The notes below the pieces were generated by a model, which had not been told where the DNA came from, ran no database searches, and saw nothing but the letters and a program-made list of their open reading frames with translations. Position numbers and translations under genes: made by a program. Source: Hyalangium ruber (GTDB lineage Bacteria; Myxococcota; Myxococcia; Myxococcales; Myxococcaceae). From it: a stretch of DNA of 64,000 nucleotides. Below are positions 39,067-48,855 of the stretch, one piece after another. Where the stretch lies: NCBI RefSeq assembly GCF_034259325.1, contig NZ_JAXIVS010000004.1:620001-684000 (forward strand), written 5' to 3'. Within the stretch, counting starts at the first letter, position 1; each line of letters starts with the position of its first letter.

Positions 39067-40134
39067 ATGCGCCTCACCTGCCTCCGTGGACGTGCGCCCC
39101 TGGCACTCACGTGCCTGTTGCTCCTCGTTGCCTCCTGCCGTGGCTCCCTGAGCTGCGCCAGCGGAGGCGCGCAGGCGCCCACGGGGCCGCGCGTCTATGT
39201 CAGCAACGAGGAGTCCAACGACATCTCCGTCATTGACCCGTCGACGGATCAGGTCGTCGCCACCGTCTTCGTGGGCAAGCGCCCCCGGGGGCTCCGGCTC
39301 AGCCCCGACGGCAAGACGCTCTACGTGGCCGTGAGCGGCTCGCCCCGCGCCCCTCCAGGCGTGGACGAGAGCACCCTGCCCCCTCCGGACCGGAGCGCCG
39401 ATGGCATCGCGCTCGTGGACGTGGCCACGCTCGAGCTCGTCAAGACGCTGGAGAGCGGCAATGACCCGGAGACGTTCGACATCACCCCCGACGGCAAGCA
39501 CCTGTTCGTCTCCAATGAGGATGCGGCCCTCGCCTCCGTGGTGGAGCTCGCCTCGGGCCGGGTGACGCGCACCGTACCCGTCGGCCGCGAGCCCGAGGGC
39601 GTCACCACGCGGCCCGATGGCCGGGCCGTCTACGTCACCAGCGAGCAGGACAGCCAGGTCTTCGTCCTCGACACCTCGAGCCATGAGGTGGTGGCGCGCA
39701 TCCCCACCGGTGACAGGCCTCGCTCCGTCGCCTTCACCCCGGACAGCACGCGCGCCTACATCGCCGCGGAGTTCGGCCGCACCATCACCGTGGCCGATGC
39801 CCGAGAGCACCGCGTCCTCACCACCATCCCCATCGAGCCCGCGAGCGCCAGGCCCATGGGCACCGCGCTCTCTCCGGATGGCCGGACGCTGTACGTCACC
39901 CACGGTCGCGGAAAGTCCCTCTCCTTCATCGACATCGCGAGCAACCAGGTCGTCCGCACCGTGGAGGACGTAGGCACCCGCCCCTGGGGCATCGGCGTCA
40001 GCCCCGACGGCCGCAAGCTCTACACCGCCAACGGTCCCTCCAACGATGTCGCCGTCATCGACGCCCAGTCGGGCGCGGTGCTCAAGCGCATCCGCGTGGG
40101 CACCCTGCCCTGGGGCATCGCCGTCGCACGCTAG
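39067..40134 (+). CDS. YVTN beta-propeller lipoprotein associated with PQQ-dependent catabolism
   Basis: The 355-aa protein has a lipoprotein signal (LLLLVASC, Cys24) and about seven YVTN-type blades: RVYVSNEESNDISVIDPSTD, LRLSPDGKTLYVAVS, FDITPDGKHLFVSNED and GIGVSPDGRKLYTANGPSND. This matches the propeller proteins repeatedly found beside PQQ-dependent dehydrogenases. The dehydrogenase gene follows after 123 bp on the same strand. Its role is unproven; scaffolding or cofactor/electron-partner binding at the envelope is plausible. Confidence 0.83.
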   Translation: MRLTCLRGRAPLALTCLLLLVASCRGSLSCASGGAQAPTGPRVYVSNEESNDISVIDPSTDQVVATVFVGKRPRGLRLSPDGKTLYVAVSGSPRAPPGVDESTLPPPDRSADGIALVDVATLELVKTLESGNDPETFDITPDGKHLFVSNEDAALASVVELASGRVTRTVPVGREPEGVTTRPDGRAVYVTSEQDSQVFVLDTSSHEVVARIPTGDRPRSVAFTPDSTRAYIAAEFGRTITVADAREHRVLTTIPIEPASARPMGTALSPDGRTLYVTHGRGKSLSFIDIASNQVVRTVEDVGTRPWGIGVSPDGRKLYTANGPSNDVAVIDAQSGAVLKRIRVGTLPWGIAVAR

Positions 40135-40257: not shown

Positions 40258-42150
40258 ATGCCGCTCCCCGCGCAGGACACCTCCAGCTCACCGCCCGCCC
40301 TGAACTCCGTTCTCGGGACGCGTGCGCTCCTCGTCGCGCTCGTCCTCGCGCTCCTGCCCGCCTGCAAGGACAAGAGTCCGAAGCCGCCCGCCTCTACCGC
40401 CTCGGGCGCCAAGAGCCCTCAGCTCGACAAGGCCCAGTTCGACGTCTCCCAGCTCCAGGAGGATGACACCCAGTGGGTCATGGCGGCGAAGAACCACGCC
40501 AACACCCGCTTCAGCCGCCTCACGGACATCAACGCCACCAACGTGAAGGACTTGAAGGTGGCGTGGACGTACTCCACCGGCTTCGTGCGCGGACACGAGG
40601 CCGCGCCGCTCGTGGTGGGCGACACGATGTACGTCGTCACCCCGTTTCCCAACCATCTGGTCGCGCTGGACCTCTCCAAGGAGGGCGCGCCGATGAAGTG
40701 GGTGTACGAGCCCCAGCCCTCCCCGGCCGCCCAGGGCGTGGCCTGCTGTGACCACGTCAACCGCGGCGCGGCCTACGCCGACGGGCGCCTCTTCTACAAC
40801 ACGCTCGACAACCACACCGTGGCCGTGGACGCGCAGACGGGCAAGGAGCTGTGGAAGACGAAGCTCGGCGACATCAACAAGGGCGAGACGATGACCATGG
40901 CCCCGCTGGTCGTGCGCGACAAGGTCATCGTCGGCAACAGCGGCGGCGAGTTCGGCGTGCGCGGGTGGGCGGCGGCGCTCTCCACGAAGACGGGCGCCGT
41001 GCTGTGGCGCGCCTACAGCACCGGGCCGGACTCGGACGTGCTCATCGGCCCCAACTTCAAGCCCTTCTACGAGCAGGACCGTGGCAAGGACCTGGGCGTC
41101 AAGAGCTGGCCTCCCGAGCAGTGGAAGATCGGCGGCGGCACCGTGTGGGGGTGGCTCTCGTACGACCCCGAGCTGGACCTCCTCTATTACGGCACCGGCA
41201 ACCCCGGCCCGTGGAACCCCGAGCAGCGCCCCGGCGACAACAAGTGGACGTGCGGCATCTTCGCGCGCAAGCCGGACACCGGCGAGGCCGTGTGGTTCTA
41301 CCAGTGGAGCCCGCACGATCTGTTCGACCATGACGGCATCAACGAGGCCATCATCACGAACCTCACCGTCAACGGCCAGCCGCGCAAGGTGCTCATCCAC
41401 CCCGGGCGCACCGGCTACGTGTACGTGCTGGACCGCGCCACCGGCGAGGTGCTCTCGGCCGTTCCCTTCGCGCACATCACCACCAGCAAGGGCGTGGACC
41501 TGAAGACGGGCAAGCTCGTCCCCGTGCTGGAGAAGAGCCCGGGCCTGGGCAAGACGGTGCGCGACATCTGCCCCGCGGCGCCGGGCGCCAAGGACTGGTC
41601 CCCCGCCGCCTTCTCGCCGCAGACGGGGCTGCTCTACATCCCCGGCAACAACCTCTGCCAGGACGAGCAGGGCCTGGAGGCCAACTACATCGCCGGCACA
41701 CCGTACCTCGGCGCCAACGTGCGGATGTACCCGGGCCCTGGCGGCAATGGCGGCGAGTTCATCGCCTGGGATGTCCTCAACGGGAAGAAGGTGTGGAGCA
41801 TCCCCGAGCTGTTCCCCGTCTTCAGCGGCGCGCTGGTCACCGCCGGGGACGTGGTCTTCTACGGAACGATGGATGGCTGGTTCAAGGCGCTCCACGCGCG
41901 CACCGGCCAAGAGCTGTGGAAGTTCAAGGTGGGCTCCGGAATCATCGGCCAGCCCATCACCTTCCGAGGACCGGACGGCACGCAGTACGTCTCCGTGCTC
42001 TCCGGCGTGGGGGGCTGGGCCGGCGCCATCGTCGCGGGCCAGTTGGATCCACGCGACCAGAGCGCCGCGCTGGGCTTCGCCAACGCCATGAAGGAGCTGC
42101 CCAAGTACACCACCCGGGGCGGCATGCTCTACACCTTCCGCCTGCCATGA
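40258..42150 (+). CDS. PQQ-dependent methanol/ethanol-family dehydrogenase with lanthanide-type D-x-D motif
   Basis: The 630-aa quinoprotein is an eight-bladed propeller that would oxidise an alcohol in the periplasm and pass electrons to cytochrome c. The adjacent-Cys disulfide of the family is C163-C164 (GVACCDH). Metal/PQQ ligands by motif are Glu231 (GGEFG), Asn315 (GTGNPGPWN) and catalytic Asp357 in FDHDGIN. Asp359, two residues on, is the extra Asp that marks lanthanide enzymes (XoxF, ExaF); calcium enzymes of the MxaF type have Ala there. The N-terminus has an unusual lipoprotein-like signal (LALLPAC, Cys36). The start at 40258 has GGAG about 5 nt upstream. It heads a series of overlapping genes. 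Confidence 0.88.
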   Translation: MPLPAQDTSSSPPALNSVLGTRALLVALVLALLPACKDKSPKPPASTASGAKSPQLDKAQFDVSQLQEDDTQWVMAAKNHANTRFSRLTDINATNVKDLKVAWTYSTGFVRGHEAAPLVVGDTMYVVTPFPNHLVALDLSKEGAPMKWVYEPQPSPAAQGVACCDHVNRGAAYADGRLFYNTLDNHTVAVDAQTGKELWKTKLGDINKGETMTMAPLVVRDKVIVGNSGGEFGVRGWAAALSTKTGAVLWRAYSTGPDSDVLIGPNFKPFYEQDRGKDLGVKSWPPEQWKIGGGTVWGWLSYDPELDLLYYGTGNPGPWNPEQRPGDNKWTCGIFARKPDTGEAVWFYQWSPHDLFDHDGINEAIITNLTVNGQPRKVLIHPGRTGYVYVLDRATGEVLSAVPFAHITTSKGVDLKTGKLVPVLEKSPGLGKTVRDICPAAPGAKDWSPAAFSPQTGLLYIPGNNLCQDEQGLEANYIAGTPYLGANVRMYPGPGGNGGEFIAWDVLNGKKVWSIPELFPVFSGALVTAGDVVFYGTMDGWFKALHARTGQELWKFKVGSGIIGQPITFRGPDGTQYVSVLSGVGGWAGAIVAGQLDPRDQSAALGFANAMKELPKYTTRGGMLYTFRLP

Positions 42151-42965
42151 GGATGCCCGTGATCGCCCAGACGCTCGCGGTCCTGCTCCTGCTGGGAGCC
42201 GCGCCCTCCACCGAGCCGCCCGCCGCGCCGCCCGAGCGCGTGCTGCGCGTGTGCGCGGACCCCAACAACCTGCCCTTCTCCAACCAGCGCCAGGAGGGCC
42301 TGGAGAACCGGCTCGCCGAGCTGCTCGCGCGCGAGCTGAAGGCCACCGTGCAATACACGTGGTGGGCCCAGCGCCGTGGCTTCATCCGCAACACCCTCAA
42401 GGCGGGCCTGTGCGACGTGGTGCTCGGAGTGCCCGCGGACTTCGAGCTGGCGCTCACCACGCGGCCCTACTACCGCTCCACCTACGTCTTCGTGTACCGC
42501 AAGGACCGAGGGCTGAAGCTGGGCTCGCTGGAGGATGAGGCGCTGCGCACGCTGAAGGTCGGCGTCCACCTGATCGGCGACGACATGGCCAACACGCCGC
42601 CCGCGCACGCGCTCGCCCGGCGCGGCATCGTGAACAACGTCGTCGGCTACACCCTCTATGGCGACTACACGCAGGAGAACCCGCCCTCGGCGCTCATCGA
42701 AGCGGTGCGCCGGGGCGAGGTGGACGTGGCCATCGCCTGGGGGCCCCTGGCTGGCTACTTCGCCCTGCGGCCCGGGCCGGAACTGGAGGTCGTGCCCGTC
42801 CAGCCTCGCAAGGACACCGCCACCGGGCTGCCCTTCGTGTTCGACATCTCCGTGGGCGTGCGTCGCGGGGACAAGGCGCTGAAGGCGGAGCTGGAAGCCG
42901 CGCTCTCCCGCCGCCGCCCCGAGGTGGAGGCGCTGCTCACCGAGTACGGCGTGCCTCGTCCCTGA
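42147..42965 (+). CDS. Quinoprotein dehydrogenase-associated periplasmic binding-protein-like protein (XoxJ/MoxJ-like)
   Basis: The 272-aa exported protein has a signal peptide and an amino-acid-binding-protein (SBP_bac_3) fold: LRVCADPNNLPFSNQRQEGL, then GLCDVVLGVPADFELALTT. The start ATG overlaps the dehydrogenase stop (ATGA). Homologues beside PQQ dehydrogenases (MxaJ/XoxJ) are thought to help activate or assemble the dehydrogenase rather than import a substrate. No ABC permease is linked here, which supports that reading. Confidence 0.86.
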   Translation: MRMPVIAQTLAVLLLLGAAPSTEPPAAPPERVLRVCADPNNLPFSNQRQEGLENRLAELLARELKATVQYTWWAQRRGFIRNTLKAGLCDVVLGVPADFELALTTRPYYRSTYVFVYRKDRGLKLGSLEDEALRTLKVGVHLIGDDMANTPPAHALARRGIVNNVVGYTLYGDYTQENPPSALIEAVRRGEVDVAIAWGPLAGYFALRPGPELEVVPVQPRKDTATGLPFVFDISVGVRRGDKALKAELEAALSRRRPEVEALLTEYGVPRP

Positions 42966-42976
42966 AGGAAGCCCTC

Positions 42977-43531
42977 ATGCACGCGCTCCCCGCCCGACAC
43001 TTCCTCCCGTGCCTCTGCCTGCTGGGCCTGGTGCTTGGCTCGTGCGAGCGGGAGCACCGCCGCTTCCAAGAGCTGGCGCCCTCCTCGCGCCCGGCGGACG
43101 CCGTCCAGATGAGCGAGCTGCAACCCGGCGAGCCCACGCCACGCCCTCAAACCCAGGCCCAGTACGAGGAGAACGCCTACGCCCTCAACGAGGGCAAGCG
43201 GCTCTACCAGTGGTTCAACTGCTCGGGCTGCCATGCCCAGGGTGGAGGCGGCATGGGCCCTCCTCTCATGGACGCCAAGTGGCGCTATGGCAGCGAGCCG
43301 GAGAACATCTACGCCACCATCGTGGAGGGACGCCCCAACGGCATGCCCTCCTACCGGGGGAAGATTCCCGACCAGCAGGTCTGGCAGATCGTCGCCTATG
43401 TGCGCTCGATGAGCGGGCTGCTGCGCACGGATGTGGCGCCCAGCCGCGCCGACTCGCTCAGCGTCAAGCCCCCGGAGGCGATGAAGGCCGAGGAGAAGCC
43501 CACTCCCGCGCCGGTGGAGCAGGAGCGATGA
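42977..43531 (+). CDS. Class I cytochrome c lipoprotein, probable electron acceptor of the dehydrogenase
   Basis: The 184-aa protein has a lipoprotein signal (GLVLGSC, Cys23) and one heme c site (FNCSGCHAQGGGG), with Met ligand in GMPSYRGKI. Its position directly after the dehydrogenase and its partner matches cytochrome cL/XoxG genes, which take electrons from the quinoprotein. A Pro/Glu-rich tail follows the heme domain. Its stop overlaps the start of oxidase subunit II (ATGA), tying acceptor and oxidase together. Confidence 0.85.
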   Translation: MHALPARHFLPCLCLLGLVLGSCEREHRRFQELAPSSRPADAVQMSELQPGEPTPRPQTQAQYEENAYALNEGKRLYQWFNCSGCHAQGGGGMGPPLMDAKWRYGSEPENIYATIVEGRPNGMPSYRGKIPDQQVWQIVAYVRSMSGLLRTDVAPSRADSLSVKPPEAMKAEEKPTPAPVEQER

Positions 43532-44595
43532 AGGGGTGGGCCCTGCTCTGCGCGCTCCTGCTGGCGGGCTGCCGGGGAGCCGCCCAGTCCGTGCTGGAGC
43601 CCGCGGGCCCCAGCGCGGCGCGCATCCACGCGCTGTGGAACGTCTTCCTGGCGATCTGCACGGGCGTCTTCGTCCTCGTGGTGGTGACGATGCTGCTGGC
43701 CGTGCTCCGCCGCCGCGTGGATCCGGAGATCGGCTCCAGCCCTCCGGAGGTGGACGCGGAGGCCCTGCTCCCCAAGGAGAAGCGCGCCCACCTTCACGCG
43801 AAGGCCGTGGAGCCCGCCACCGAGCGCCGACTGGCCCAGTGGGTGGCCACCGCCGCGGCGTTGACGGTGGTGCTCCTGCTGGTGCTGCTGGTGACCAACA
43901 CGCTCACGGGCAAGGCCCTGGCGGCGCTGCGCTCCGAGCATGCGCTGGAGGTGGAGGTGGTGGGCCACCAGTGGTGGTGGGAGTTCAAGTACCGCGACCC
44001 CGAGCCCTCGCGGCTGCTCAATACCGCCAATGAGCTGCACATCCCCGTGGGCCGGCCCGTGGCCCTGAAGCTCACCTCGCGCGACGTCATCCACAGCTTC
44101 TGGGTGCCCAACCTCGCCGGCAAGCGGGACCTCATCCCCGGCCAGGAGAACACCCTGCTCCTGCAAGCGGACAAGCCCGGCGTCTACCGCGGGCTGTGCG
44201 CCGAGTTCTGCGGCCACCAGCACGCGAAGATGGCCTTCCTCGTGGTGGCCGAGCCGCCCGAGGCGTTCGAGAAGTGGCGCGAGCACCAGCTCCAGCCCGC
44301 CGCGCCGCCGATGGAGCTGCTCACCCAGCGCGGCCAGCAGGTGTTCCTCACCGGCCCGTGCGTGCTGTGCCACGCCATCCAGGGCACGAGCGCCTCGGCC
44401 ACGGTGGGCCCCAACCTCACGCACCTCGCCAGCCGTCAGACGCTCGCCGCCGCCACGCTGCCCAATGTGCGCGGCCACCTCGCGGGGTGGATCCTCAACT
44501 CGCAGAGCCTCAAGCCGGGGAACAAGATGCCGCCCATCACCCTGCCACCGGAGGACCTGCACGCGCTGCTGGCTTACCTGGAGAGCCTGAAATGA
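43528..44595 (+). CDS. coxB: Cytochrome c oxidase subunit II with C-terminal cytochrome c domain
   Basis: The 355-aa protein has a lipoprotein-type signal (LLLAGC) and two membrane helices (about 30-50 and 98-120). The cupredoxin domain has the aromatic patch HQWWWEFKY and a complete CuA site: Cys224, Glu226, Cys228, His232 and Met235 in CAEFCGHQHAKM. A fused class I cytochrome c domain (about 270-355) carries CVLCH. This is a caa3-type layout, receiving electrons directly from the preceding cytochrome. It is coupled to neighbours by 4-bp overlaps on both sides. Confidence 0.92.
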   Translation: MKGWALLCALLLAGCRGAAQSVLEPAGPSAARIHALWNVFLAICTGVFVLVVVTMLLAVLRRRVDPEIGSSPPEVDAEALLPKEKRAHLHAKAVEPATERRLAQWVATAAALTVVLLLVLLVTNTLTGKALAALRSEHALEVEVVGHQWWWEFKYRDPEPSRLLNTANELHIPVGRPVALKLTSRDVIHSFWVPNLAGKRDLIPGQENTLLLQADKPGVYRGLCAEFCGHQHAKMAFLVVAEPPEAFEKWREHQLQPAAPPMELLTQRGQQVFLTGPCVLCHAIQGTSASATVGPNLTHLASRQTLAAATLPNVRGHLAGWILNSQSLKPGNKMPPITLPPEDLHALLAYLESLK

Positions 44596-46538
44596 GCTCC
44601 GGGTCCGTCCTCCCCTCGCCGGCCCTGCCGGACGCGCCGCCCCTGGAGTCCGAGGCCGAAGCGCGCGAGCGGGCGCAGCTCGAGCGCACCTGGAGCCCGC
44701 TCGGGGGCCTCAAGGGCTGGCTGAGCGACGTACACCACACCACGATCGGCCGGCGCTTCATCGTCACCGCCTTCATCTTCTTCCTGCTCGGGGGCGTGGA
44801 GGCGCTGGTGATGCGGCTCCAGCTCGCGCGGCCGGAGAGCACGGTGCTCGGGCCGGACCTGTACAACCAGGTCTTCACCATGCACGGCAGCACGATGATG
44901 TTCCTGTTCGCCGTGCCCATGATGGAGGGCGTGGGACTGCTGCTGGTGCCGCTGATGATCGGCACGCGCAACGCGGCGTTCCCCCGGCTCAACGCGTTCG
45001 CCTATTACACGTACCTCATCGGCGGGCTGCTGATGAACGTGAGCTTCCTGCTCGACATGGGCCCGGACACCGGGTGGTTCGCCTACGTGCCGCTCTCGGG
45101 CCCCGAGTACTCGCCCGGCAAGCGCGTGGACGTGTGGGCGCAGATGATCACCTTCACGGAGCTGTCCGCCCTGGCCGGCTCCGTCAACATGATCGCCACC
45201 ATCTTCAAGCTGCGGGCGCCGGGCATGTCCCTCAACCGCATGCCCCTGTTCGTGTGGGCCCAGCTGGTGAAGGCCTTCATGATCCTCTTCTCGATGCCGG
45301 CGGTGATGCTCGCCAGCCTCTACCTGGCGATGGACCGGCTCATCGGCACGCACTTCTTCAACCCGGCCGAGGGAGGAGACGCGCTGCTGTGGCAGCACCT
45401 GTTCTGGTTCTTCGGCCACCCCGAGGTCTACATCATCTTCCTGCCCGCCCTGGGCATCCTCTCCTCGGTGCTGGCGGTGTTCGCGCGCCGGGAGATCTTC
45501 GGCTACCTGCCCATGGTGCTGGCGATGGTCGCCATTGGCTTCATCGGCTTCGGGCTGTGGGTCCACCACATGTTCGCCACCGGGCTGCCGCAGCTCGGCC
45601 AGAGCTTCTTCACCGCCGCCAGCCTCATGGTGGCCGTGCCCAGCGGGGTGCAGATCTTCTGCTGGCTGGCCACGCTGTGGGGCGGGAAGCTGCGGCTGCG
45701 CCTGCCGCTGTATTGGATCCTCGCCTTCTTTGCCCTCTTCGTGTTCGGCGGCCTGAGCGGGGTGATGCTCGGCGCCTATGCGCTGGACCTGCAGGTCCAC
45801 GACACCTTCTTCGTCGTCGCCCACTTCCACTACGTGCTCATCGGCGGCGCCGTCTTCCCGCTCTTCGGCGGCTTCTACTACTGGTTCCCCAAGTTCACTG
45901 GGCGGATGCTGAGCGAGCGGCTGGGCAAGTGGCACTTCTGGCTCTTCTTCGCAGGCTTCAACCTCACCTTCTTCCCCATGCACTACCTGGGGCTGATGGG
46001 CATGCCCCGCCGCGTCTACACCTACGCCCCGGACCGCGGGTGGACGGACCTCAACCTGCTGGCCACCGTGGGCACCTTCATCATGGCGGTGGGCCTCGTG
46101 CTGTTCGTGGTCAACGTCTTCTGGAGCCGCAAACGCGGCGCCGTGGCCGGTGACAACCCGTGGGATGCCGACACACTCGAGTGGGCCACCTCCTCTCCCC
46201 CGCCGCCGTACAACTTCCTGCACCTGCCCACGGTGCGCGGGCGCTACGCGCTGTGGACCCAGGCGGTGGACCAGCCCATCGTCACCGGCGTGCGGAGTGA
46301 TCGGCCCGAGGTGCTCGTCACCCGGCTGATGGACGCCGAGCCGGACCACCGCATGGAACAGCCGGGGCCCTCGCTGTGGCCGCTCGCGGTGGCGCTGAGC
46401 AGCGGGGTGGCGTTCACCGTCTCCATCTTCACGCCCTGGGGCATCGTCATCGGCGCCGGGTTGGCCCTCATCACGCTCACCGGCTGGTTCTGGCCGAAGA
46501 AGCCCTACCGGGAAGAACTCCTCGAGGAGCAGCCGTGA
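44592..46538 (+). CDS. ctaD: Cytochrome c oxidase subunit I with altered D and K channel residues
   Basis: The 648-aa subunit starts at the ATG at 44592 (ATGA overlap). Heme and copper ligands are intact: TMHGSTMMF, HPEVY at 276-280 (His-Tyr cross-link and Glu278), WVHHMF and VVAHFHYVL. The usual D-channel entry I-G-A-P-D-M-A-F-P-R reads IGTRNAAFPR, so the Asp is Asn127, and the channel Asn in GNYFMPL is also lost (GLLLVPL). The K-channel P-T-G-[IV]-K reads PSGVQIFCW, so the Lys is Gln354. A C-terminal extension has two further helices. It reduces oxygen in the inner membrane; its pumping ability is questionable. Confidence 0.92.
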   Translation: MSSGSVLPSPALPDAPPLESEAEARERAQLERTWSPLGGLKGWLSDVHHTTIGRRFIVTAFIFFLLGGVEALVMRLQLARPESTVLGPDLYNQVFTMHGSTMMFLFAVPMMEGVGLLLVPLMIGTRNAAFPRLNAFAYYTYLIGGLLMNVSFLLDMGPDTGWFAYVPLSGPEYSPGKRVDVWAQMITFTELSALAGSVNMIATIFKLRAPGMSLNRMPLFVWAQLVKAFMILFSMPAVMLASLYLAMDRLIGTHFFNPAEGGDALLWQHLFWFFGHPEVYIIFLPALGILSSVLAVFARREIFGYLPMVLAMVAIGFIGFGLWVHHMFATGLPQLGQSFFTAASLMVAVPSGVQIFCWLATLWGGKLRLRLPLYWILAFFALFVFGGLSGVMLGAYALDLQVHDTFFVVAHFHYVLIGGAVFPLFGGFYYWFPKFTGRMLSERLGKWHFWLFFAGFNLTFFPMHYLGLMGMPRRVYTYAPDRGWTDLNLLATVGTFIMAVGLVLFVVNVFWSRKRGAVAGDNPWDADTLEWATSSPPPPYNFLHLPTVRGRYALWTQAVDQPIVTGVRSDRPEVLVTRLMDAEPDHRMEQPGPSLWPLAVALSSGVAFTVSIFTPWGIVIGAGLALITLTGWFWPKKPYREELLEEQP

Positions 46539-47146
46539 ACCGCCGCCGGACCCTCGACGTCTCGCACCTGCCGACCTTCGCGTTCGGCCAGCGCGACCCG
46601 CTGTGGTGGGGCGTGATGGGGTTGATTGTCATCGAGAGCACCGTCTTCGTCCTGGGCCTCGCCTCCTACTTCTACATCCGAGGCAACCACTTCGAATGGC
46701 CGCCCTCGGGCAGTGACCCCATCATCCGGGTGCTGGCCACCGTCAACATGGGGCTCCTGCTCCTGAGCTGCCTGCCCATGCACTGGGCCAACACGTCCGC
46801 CTTGAAGCGAAAGCTCCGGGGGATGCGTTGGGGACTCGTCCTCGCCAGCCTCCTGGGACTGGCCTTCCTCGCCATCCGCATCATCAACATGCAGGCCGTG
46901 GGCTTCCGCTGGGACAGCCATGCCTACGGCTCCATCTTCTTCACCCTCGTGGGCCTACACACCGTCCACATCATCGCGTCCACGCTGGAGAACCTCGTCA
47001 TCGCCGCGGTCCTCTTCATCGGGCCCGTGGAGGAGAAGCACCTCGTCGACGTGCGGGTCAACGGCATGTACTGGTTCTTCGTCGTCGCCAGCTGGGTGCC
47101 CTTCTACGTCCTCCTCTTCATGGCCCCCAACCTGTTCCGCGCCTGA
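46535..47146 (+). CDS. ctaE: Cytochrome c oxidase subunit III
   Basis: The 203-aa protein with five or six membrane segments starts at GTG 46535, overlapping ctaD (GTGA). Family features are WWGVMGLIVIESTVFVLGLA near the N-terminus, the TLVGLHTVHIIASTLE segment with the conserved Glu/His, and the end motif YWFFVVASWVPFYVLL. The length is that of the short form lacking the first two helices of mitochondrial subunit III. Confidence 0.88.
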   Translation: MNRRRTLDVSHLPTFAFGQRDPLWWGVMGLIVIESTVFVLGLASYFYIRGNHFEWPPSGSDPIIRVLATVNMGLLLLSCLPMHWANTSALKRKLRGMRWGLVLASLLGLAFLAIRIINMQAVGFRWDSHAYGSIFFTLVGLHTVHIIASTLENLVIAAVLFIGPVEEKHLVDVRVNGMYWFFVVASWVPFYVLLFMAPNLFRA

Positions 47147-47172
47147 GGCGCGCCCACGGCAAGGAGTCCGGC

Positions 47173-47550
47173 ATGGCACGGTCCCAGCCCCCACCCGAGG
47201 CTTCGAGCACCCGCCGCGACGCGGCGCTCTGGGTGGGTGTGCTCGCTCCGCCGCTGGCCTGGTTGTTCCTGCTGCAAGTGAGCTACAGCGTCGTCACCAC
47301 CGACTGCCGGCAGGCCCAGCCGCTGTTGATGCATGGCCTGACGCTCGGAGCACTGCTGCTCGTGGGCGTGGGGGCACTGGCGGCCTGGCGCTCGTGGAAG
47401 GCCCTGCGCGCCGAGCCGGCCTCGCTGGAGTCCGAAGGCCCGGGGCGGGCTCGCTTCATGGCGCTCCTGGGGCTCGTCGAGAGCGCGCTGTTCGCGCTCG
47501 TCATCGTCTCCAACTCCATCTCCACCTTCCTCCTGAGTCCCTGTGACTGA
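47173..47550 (+). CDS. Small membrane protein within the oxidase operon
   Basis: The 125-aa protein starts at the ATG at 47173 behind AAGGAG (47161-47166). It has three predicted helices (about 18-38, 52-72 and 95-118) and a conserved-looking SVVTTDCRQAQPLLMHG loop. It lies 26 bp after subunit III and overlaps ctaG by 8 bp. The position suggests a subunit IV-like or assembly role. I do not recognise the family. Confidence 0.75.
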   Translation: MARSQPPPEASSTRRDAALWVGVLAPPLAWLFLLQVSYSVVTTDCRQAQPLLMHGLTLGALLLVGVGALAAWRSWKALRAEPASLESEGPGRARFMALLGLVESALFALVIVSNSISTFLLSPCD

Positions 47551-48493
47551 GCCATCCGCCTCCTCGCGAGCGCTCGCGCTGCTCGCCCTGCTCGCTCCGG
47601 CCGTCGCGCTCGCCCATGGCGGGGAGCACCCCGCCCTCACCGTCTCGGAGGTGATGGGCTGGTGGACGTGGGATCCGCTCGTGCTGGGGACGCTCGGGCT
47701 CTCGGCCTTCCTGTATGTCCGGGGCGTGCGCACGCTGTGGCGCCGCGCGGGCACCGCGCGTGGCGTGCGACGCTGGGAGGTGGGAGCCTTCGCCCTGGGC
47801 TGGCTCACCGTCGCGGTGGCCTTGCTGTCCCCGCTCGACAGGCTCAGCGATCTGCTCTTCTCCGCGCACATGACGCAGCACGAGCTGTTGATGCTCGTCG
47901 CCGCGCCGCTGCTCGTTCTCGGCCGGCCGCACCTGCCCGCGCTGTGGGCGCTGGCCCCCAGGGCCCGTGCGCGGGTGACTGGGTGGATGCAGCACTCCGG
48001 GGTGCGTGCGGTCTGGCGGGCTGTCACCGGGCCCTTCCTCGTGCTCCTGCTCCATGCCCTGGCCCGATGGGTCTGGCACATCCCCTCGCTCTTCCAGGCC
48101 GCCCTGCGGAGCGAGGCGGTTCATGCCGTGCAGCACCTCATGTTCTTCGGCACCGCCGCGCTGTTCTGGTGGGCCCTCATCCGCGGGCGCTACGGCCGGG
48201 TGGGCTATGGCGTCGCCGTGCTGTTCGTCTTCGCCACCGCCGCCCACACCAGCCTCCTGGGGGCGTTGCTCACCTTCGCGCGCTCCGTCTGGTACCCCAT
48301 TTATGAGGGCCGAACCCAGGCTGGAGGGCTCGATGCGCTGGAGGACCAACAACTGGCGGGCCTCATCATGTGGGTTCCCGCGGGCGCCCTCTTCATCGTC
48401 GTGGGGCTGGCGCTCTTCGCCGCGTGGCTCGGCGAGGCGGAGCGGCGCGTGGCCTACACGCGAGCGGAGCTCCCCGAGGAGGGCGCTCCATGA
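47543..48493 (+). CDS. ctaG: Cytochrome c oxidase assembly factor CtaG (caa3 type)
   Basis: The 316-aa polytopic protein begins at GTG 47543, overlapping the preceding gene by 8 bp. It matches the caa3_CtaG family of Bacillus type: LSPLDRLSDLLFSAHMTQHE, then LLVLGRPHLP, with His residues in AHMTQHELLML and AVQHLMFFG placed in helices where copper may bind. It would help deliver copper to the oxidase encoded just upstream. Confidence 0.87.
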   Translation: MTEPSASSRALALLALLAPAVALAHGGEHPALTVSEVMGWWTWDPLVLGTLGLSAFLYVRGVRTLWRRAGTARGVRRWEVGAFALGWLTVAVALLSPLDRLSDLLFSAHMTQHELLMLVAAPLLVLGRPHLPALWALAPRARARVTGWMQHSGVRAVWRAVTGPFLVLLLHALARWVWHIPSLFQAALRSEAVHAVQHLMFFGTAALFWWALIRGRYGRVGYGVAVLFVFATAAHTSLLGALLTFARSVWYPIYEGRTQAGGLDALEDQQLAGLIMWVPAGALFIVVGLALFAAWLGEAERRVAYTRAELPEEGAP

Positions 48494-48855
48494 GCGGGCG
48501 ATGGTGGGGCGTGGCCGTGCTCCTGCTGGCCGGGTGCAAGCGCGACGCGGAACAGTCCGCCGCCATCGTCACGGGGGGAGACCCCGCACTCGGGAAGGCG
48601 GCCATCTCCCGGTATGGCTGCGGCTCCTGCCACACCATTCCGGGCGTTCCGGGTGCCACCGCCACCGTAGGTCCCCCTCTCCAAGCGTTGGGACAGCGCA
48701 CCTTTTTGGCGGGCCGGCTGCCCAACTCGCCCGAGAACCTCATGCAGTGGGTCCGCCATCCCCAGGAGCTGGAGCAGGGCACCGCCATGCCGAACCTCGA
48801 CGTCACGGAGGAGGATGCGCGACACATCGCTGCCTACCTCTACACCCTGCGGTGA
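48490..48855 (+). CDS. Small class I cytochrome c lipoprotein
   Basis: The 121-aa protein has a short lipoprotein signal (VLLLAGC, Cys16), one heme c motif (YGCGSCHTIPGV) and a Met ligand in GTAMPNLDVT. It overlaps the ctaG stop by 4 bp and ends the series. It resembles the short cytochromes that supply caa3-type oxidases, so this oxidase has two separate cytochromes plus the fused heme domain of subunit II. Confidence 0.87.
   Translation: MSGRWWGVAVLLLAGCKRDAEQSAAIVTGGDPALGKAAISRYGCGSCHTIPGVPGATATVGPPLQALGQRTFLAGRLPNSPENLMQWVRHPQELEQGTAMPNLDVTEEDARHIAAYLYTLR

Follow-up and report, generated by a model that had tools for sequence, protein, structure and literature searches.

An A-family oxidase with altered D- and K-channel residues in a PQQ dehydrogenase operon of Hyalangium ruber

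The oxidase operon and its catalytic subunit

Within the window, the 64,000-nucleotide stretch of Hyalangium ruber DNA analysed here, an operon on the forward strand (40258–48855) consists of genes that mostly overlap or nearly touch, with a gene for a conserved β-propeller protein (39067..40134; profile search and synteny) just upstream at its head. It begins with a PQQ-dependent dehydrogenase of the methanol/ethanol family (40258..42150; TIGR03075, 639 bits, over the cut-off), whose D-x-D lanthanide-type motif reads DHD, and continues with a MoxJ/XoxJ-like periplasmic binding protein (42138..42965; TIGR03871, 313 bits, over the cut-off) and a c-type cytochrome (42977..43531) that is MoxG/XoxG-like by position, with the CcoP and MoxG models under cut-off, and is likely the electron carrier from the dehydrogenase. 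The oxidase genes follow: COX2 carrying a fused cytochrome c domain, with a CuA site and one CXXCH (43531..44595; profiles and alignment); COX1, of the CtaD type (44592..46538); and a short COX3-like subunit of about 200 residues (46535..47146; PF00510, 49 bits), whose GTG start overlaps the COX1 stop and whose alignment begins at profile position 76. Downstream lie a small conserved protein in CoxP-like position (47173..47550; AGGAG before the ATG, synteny), for which no Pfam match was found, nor an NCBIfam match for the longer reading 47110–47550, a CtaG_Caa3 oxidase assembly factor (47543..48493; PF09678, 200 bits) and a small c-type cytochrome (48487..48855; PF00034). Three genomes from another genus, where COX1 identity is 78%, show all ten genes in identical order.

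The COX1 reading frame encodes 648 residues from an ATG at 44592, which overlaps the stop of the upstream CoxM gene, to a TGA at 46536–46538, and matches PF00115 with 524 bits and TIGR02891 with 727 bits (over the cut-off). A C-terminal extension adds two membrane helices that match PF12270 (COX4-like) weakly (20.7 bits, cut-off 26.9) and superpose on bo3 and caa3 in structure comparison. The AlphaFold model (mean pLDDT 91) scores Z values of about 45–49 against bo3, caa3 and aa3 chains; compared with R. sphaeroides COX1, as a sequence-only reading of this DNA had proposed, it superposes at 1.2–1.4 Å over about 500 residues, the D132A and K362M mutants included.

Residues were assigned by alignment to the M. 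smegmatis and B. subtilis enzymes, which have solved structures, and to P. denitrificans COX1 (locus L043), in whose numbering Asp124, Asn113 and Lys354 correspond to Rhodobacter D132, N121 and K362. All heme and CuB ligands and the cross-linking tyrosine of helix VI are present (H94, H276, H325, H326, H411, H413 and Y280), and by ligands, tyrosine and predicted fold the product is assigned to the A family of heme-copper O2 reductases. Against P. denitrificans, N134, N199, E278 and Y280 match N131, N199, E278 and Y280, and L116, N127 and Q354 fall on N113, D124 and K354; ungapped alignment with the M. smegmatis and B. subtilis enzymes likewise pairs N127 with the Asp and Q354 with the Lys. Several alignments thereby bear out what had been read from the sequence alone, namely that the D-channel Asp, its Asn121 neighbour and the K-channel Lys are replaced by Asn127, a Leu and Gln354 while heme and copper ligands and Glu278 are intact, and they add the active-site tyrosine. 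Further D-channel positions are altered (Y35 to F, S134 to A, S193 to A) or retained (N131, N199), two new carboxylates, E112 and E190, are present, and the COX2 of the window has a hydrophobic residue at the site of the K-pathway Glu.

Channel residues across the family

An alignment and a tree were built with eighty relatives, drawn from named genomes, plasmid loci and genomes of the organism's own order; a search of viral contigs gave one partial, uninformative match. Comparison centred on 57 rows in two clades, that of the window (30 rows, SH-aLRT 99) and its sister (27 rows, SH-aLRT 100), set against 31 canonical outgroups. The COX1 reading frames of the sister clade are mostly about 840 codons long, like COX1–3 fusions, and the two clades appear to match the published COX operon types a (sister) and a-II (window).

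Gln354 and a Glu190 that takes the place of a conserved helix-IV Gly each occur in 57/57 rows of the two clades and in 0/31 outgroups, and Asn121 (P. denitrificans N113) is lost from both clades. Of the 30 rows of the window's clade, 22 have N at position 124, six have S, one (the basal L053) has D and one has E; in the sister clade, 25 rows have D there and two have E. Glu at position 199 is found throughout the sister clade (27/27) and in 13/30 rows of the window's clade, or 40/57 overall, the window COX1 itself having Asn there. E112, paired with P. denitrificans 109 by the large alignment and off by one residue in a smaller one, is replaced by Gln in 10 of the 30. Acids at positions 109, 124, 190, 196 and 199 number one in all 31 outgroups, four in all 27 sister-clade members and L053, and mostly two to three in the window's clade, several members of which retain E190 alone; E190 is the sole new acid never lost. 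Within residues 38–560 of the aligned COX1 no substitute acids were found at the cytoplasmic mouth.

Both clades are invariant in the metal ligands, Tyr280, Glu278 (57/57), D404, R473, R474 and W164, and nearly so in D399. In subunit II, 24/24 outgroups have the K-pathway Glu, which is absent from the window's clade (0/29) and the sister clade (0/27), and CuA with one c-type heme motif is found in 29/29 COX2 proteins of the window's clade. As judged from these alignments, the channel changes are fixed family traits and not odd mutations, and neither end of the K pathway survives, with Lys354 replaced by Gln in subunit I and the Glu gone from subunit II. Chance or misalignment as their source was ruled out by the ungapped alignments and by conservation in the family. 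The invariance of the active site and Glu278 in all 57 rows, together with the retained ten-gene synteny, likewise ruled out a decaying gene.

On a 115-row tree the loss of N113 and the gain of E190 each map as one change, and loss of the D-channel Asp is essentially a single event in the window's clade. This pattern shows a coordinated, family-wide change of single origin, in which loss of the K pathway and N113 and the acid gains came first, followed by loss of the entrance Asp and then, in some lines including that of the window, of E199.

The third COX1 of the window's genome, present there in one copy (L003, L169:7333-9087; G000:C14:181380-182786), and its relatives L170–L175 and L178 have G, R or Q at D124, H or T at N113, M at K354 and mostly G or A at D404, with the active site intact. 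This second, myxobacterial double loss of D and K residues is independent of that in the window-type family (AU test, p 4e-05 against one origin). Sisters of the myxobacterial group (L176, L177, L179–L181) keep D124, with K354 replaced by V, I or L. In a related group (L009, L061, L182), Trp takes the place of Glu278, and K354 is replaced by Ala or Gln.

Dehydrogenase linkage, proton paths and pumping

Among the 27 window-clade loci with flanks, 21 have a dehydrogenase-like neighbour: a PQQ alcohol dehydrogenase in 11, an FdhF/YdeP-type molybdopterin enzyme in eight, another PQQ propeller enzyme in one and an MRJP-type protein in one. The remaining six have none of these, and include both loci that keep an acid at position 124; beside the sister-clade COX loci no strong dehydrogenase match was found. 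All 11 linked PQQ enzymes contain the D-x-D motif, a known feature of lanthanide-dependent enzymes. At L039, L042, L048, L052, L056, L060, L062 and L067 the molybdopterin oxidoreductase replaces the PQQ enzyme beside the same module, suggesting that the oxidase is a portable cassette. The window's genome gave no pqqC and no full-scoring pqqE, the same pqqC search being positive in five of six relatives' genomes; its PQQ may therefore be scavenged from outside.

The reading we prefer, which we hold to be about evenly balanced between right and wrong, is that the enzyme is functional in O2 reduction and reserved for a periplasmic dehydrogenase, that its protons travel by a remodelled D-like route, and that pumping is probably weakened or lost. 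It would serve as a dedicated terminal oxidase (COX operon type a-II) for a periplasmic, lanthanide-type PQQ alcohol dehydrogenase. Following the observed gene order, electrons would pass from alcohol through the PQQ enzyme and the operon's cytochrome c into COX2, by way of its cytochrome c domain and CuA, and onward through heme a and heme a3/CuB to O2. On this reading an ancestor abandoned the K pathway and gained carboxylates in helices II and IV (E112, E190, E199), and only afterwards did the window's clade drop the entrance Asp. The cytoplasm would most likely remain the source of the protons for water formation, and Glu278 a station on their way, along a D-like route that does not start at the Asp; with coupling to pumping probably weakened or absent, the enzyme would be a fast sink that the proton gradient barely restrains. 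E190 lies about 125 degrees off the D-channel stripe of helix IV on an ideal-helix wheel, so its side chain may point away from the channel and not line it.

The sequence-only reading had offered a non-pumping oxidase or one with different proton paths. Different paths are well supported by the residue patterns, with the K pathway dismantled at both ends, the D channel bereft of its Asp and Asn121, and new acids in helices II and IV; a non-pumping enzyme is possible. In R. sphaeroides, N207D (the equivalent of position 199) and N139D uncouple pumping, N139D with slightly increased activity (PMC6934443), and the Rhodobacter enzyme can also be decoupled by neutral substitutions in the vicinity of Asp132, Asn121 and Asn139 (PMC4321873). 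Glu199, found in most of the family at a site where Asp uncouples the R. sphaeroides enzyme, thus favours a non-pumping oxidase; the Asn199 of the window protein stands against this, as do the intact exit and loading-side residues D399, D404, R473, R474 and W164, which argue against a pure non-pump. Disposal of electrons from a high-potential substrate, put forward earlier as the rationale, is a weak argument, as pumping aa3 oxidases ordinarily take their electrons from a c-type cytochrome.

A normal proton pump with its input relocated, in which buried carboxylates stand in for the entrance Asp and stoichiometry is kept or slightly reduced, is a rather unlikely account, although conservation of the exit and loading side is complete, the acid gains came before the Asp loss, and moving the acid in the R. 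sphaeroides D channel (D132N/N139D) has reportedly restored pumping. It sits poorly with Glu199 in 40 of 57 rows, at a position where an Asp abolishes coupling in R. sphaeroides (PMC6934443), with the missing K pathway, which leaves a single route for all protons, and with the several clade members reduced to E190. An oxidase that takes periplasmic protons and is non-electrogenic, like cytochrome c NO reductase, is improbable: the alteration of both cytoplasmic entrances would fit, as would the residual turnover of D132N, explained by proton leak through the exit channel (PMC4321873), but D132N turns over slowly, which hardly suits a dedicated oxidase, and Glu278 and the new membrane-helix acids are maintained by selection. 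Loss of channel residues is also a trait of NO reductases; even so, with the cross-linking Tyr in place, every His ligand of heme and CuB retained, and CuA and an assembly factor encoded alongside, it is most improbable that the protein belongs to the NO reductases or is an assembly paralogue in an oxidase fold and not mainly an O2 reductase.

Returning to the remodelled, dehydrogenase-linked oxidase, its boldest form, a widespread natural A-type family with neither classical D nor classical K pathway, a new carboxylate route that predates loss of the old entrance, and an uncoupled sink dedicated to a dehydrogenase, is put forward tentatively. The way in which D and K pathways link O2 chemistry to pumping has so far been studied almost wholly through point mutants of a few enzymes. 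A natural family with both pathways replaced, and with sister lineages at intermediate steps (K loss and acid gain first, Asp loss later), offers a series in which the residues critical for pumping can be tested. The enzyme may be a natural respiratory oxidase that consumes O2 without full proton pumping, and the family suggests that bacteria may set aside weakly coupled oxidases for the sole use of periplasmic dehydrogenases.

Relation to known oxidases

The operon type itself is already known as a-II (PMC4013037), and K-channel loss as such has been described in family A (PMC8239418). Like type a-II (Degli Esposti 2014, PMC4013037), or A1 subtype a (2019, PMC6431628), the window enzyme has a PQQ-dependent dehydrogenase in its operon and a C-terminal extension on COX1, which may correspond to the fused COX4-like extension of that type; its COX3 may likewise be the short, five-helix form, and the type occurs in the same rhizobial hosts. 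The main texts of both papers make no mention of D or K residue loss in type a-II, and the openly searchable literature, Degli Esposti 2020 excluded, yielded no published statement on the channels of types a and a-II.

The comparison of the window COX1 with CoxN is probably misplaced. CoxMNOP of rhizobia is an alternative aa3-type oxidase of the same bacteria, a paper on R. etli (PMC4274787) lists a window-type operon (RHE_PB00063-66, an unstudied putative oxidase) apart from coxMNOP, and other Bradyrhizobium COX1 proteins of roughly CoxN size keep the D and K residues, leaving CoxN unsupported as the family of the window protein.

COX operon type a, the sister clade, shares K354Q, E190, E199 and the losses of N113 and of the subunit II Glu, but keeps the entrance acid in all 27 rows, fuses COX3 to COX1 and lacks a strong dehydrogenase linkage. 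In the A1 type (Pereira), D-channel residues include Asp124 and Asn113 (PMC3084760); the window COX1 shares its Glu278, which ends the D channel, and is without Asp124, Asn113 and Lys354. With the canonical A1 enzymes, the aa3 oxidases of P. denitrificans and R. sphaeroides, it has in common the fold (1.2–1.4 Å), active site, Glu278 and exit residues; it differs from them in that they have D124, N113 and K354 as well as the K-pathway Glu of subunit II.
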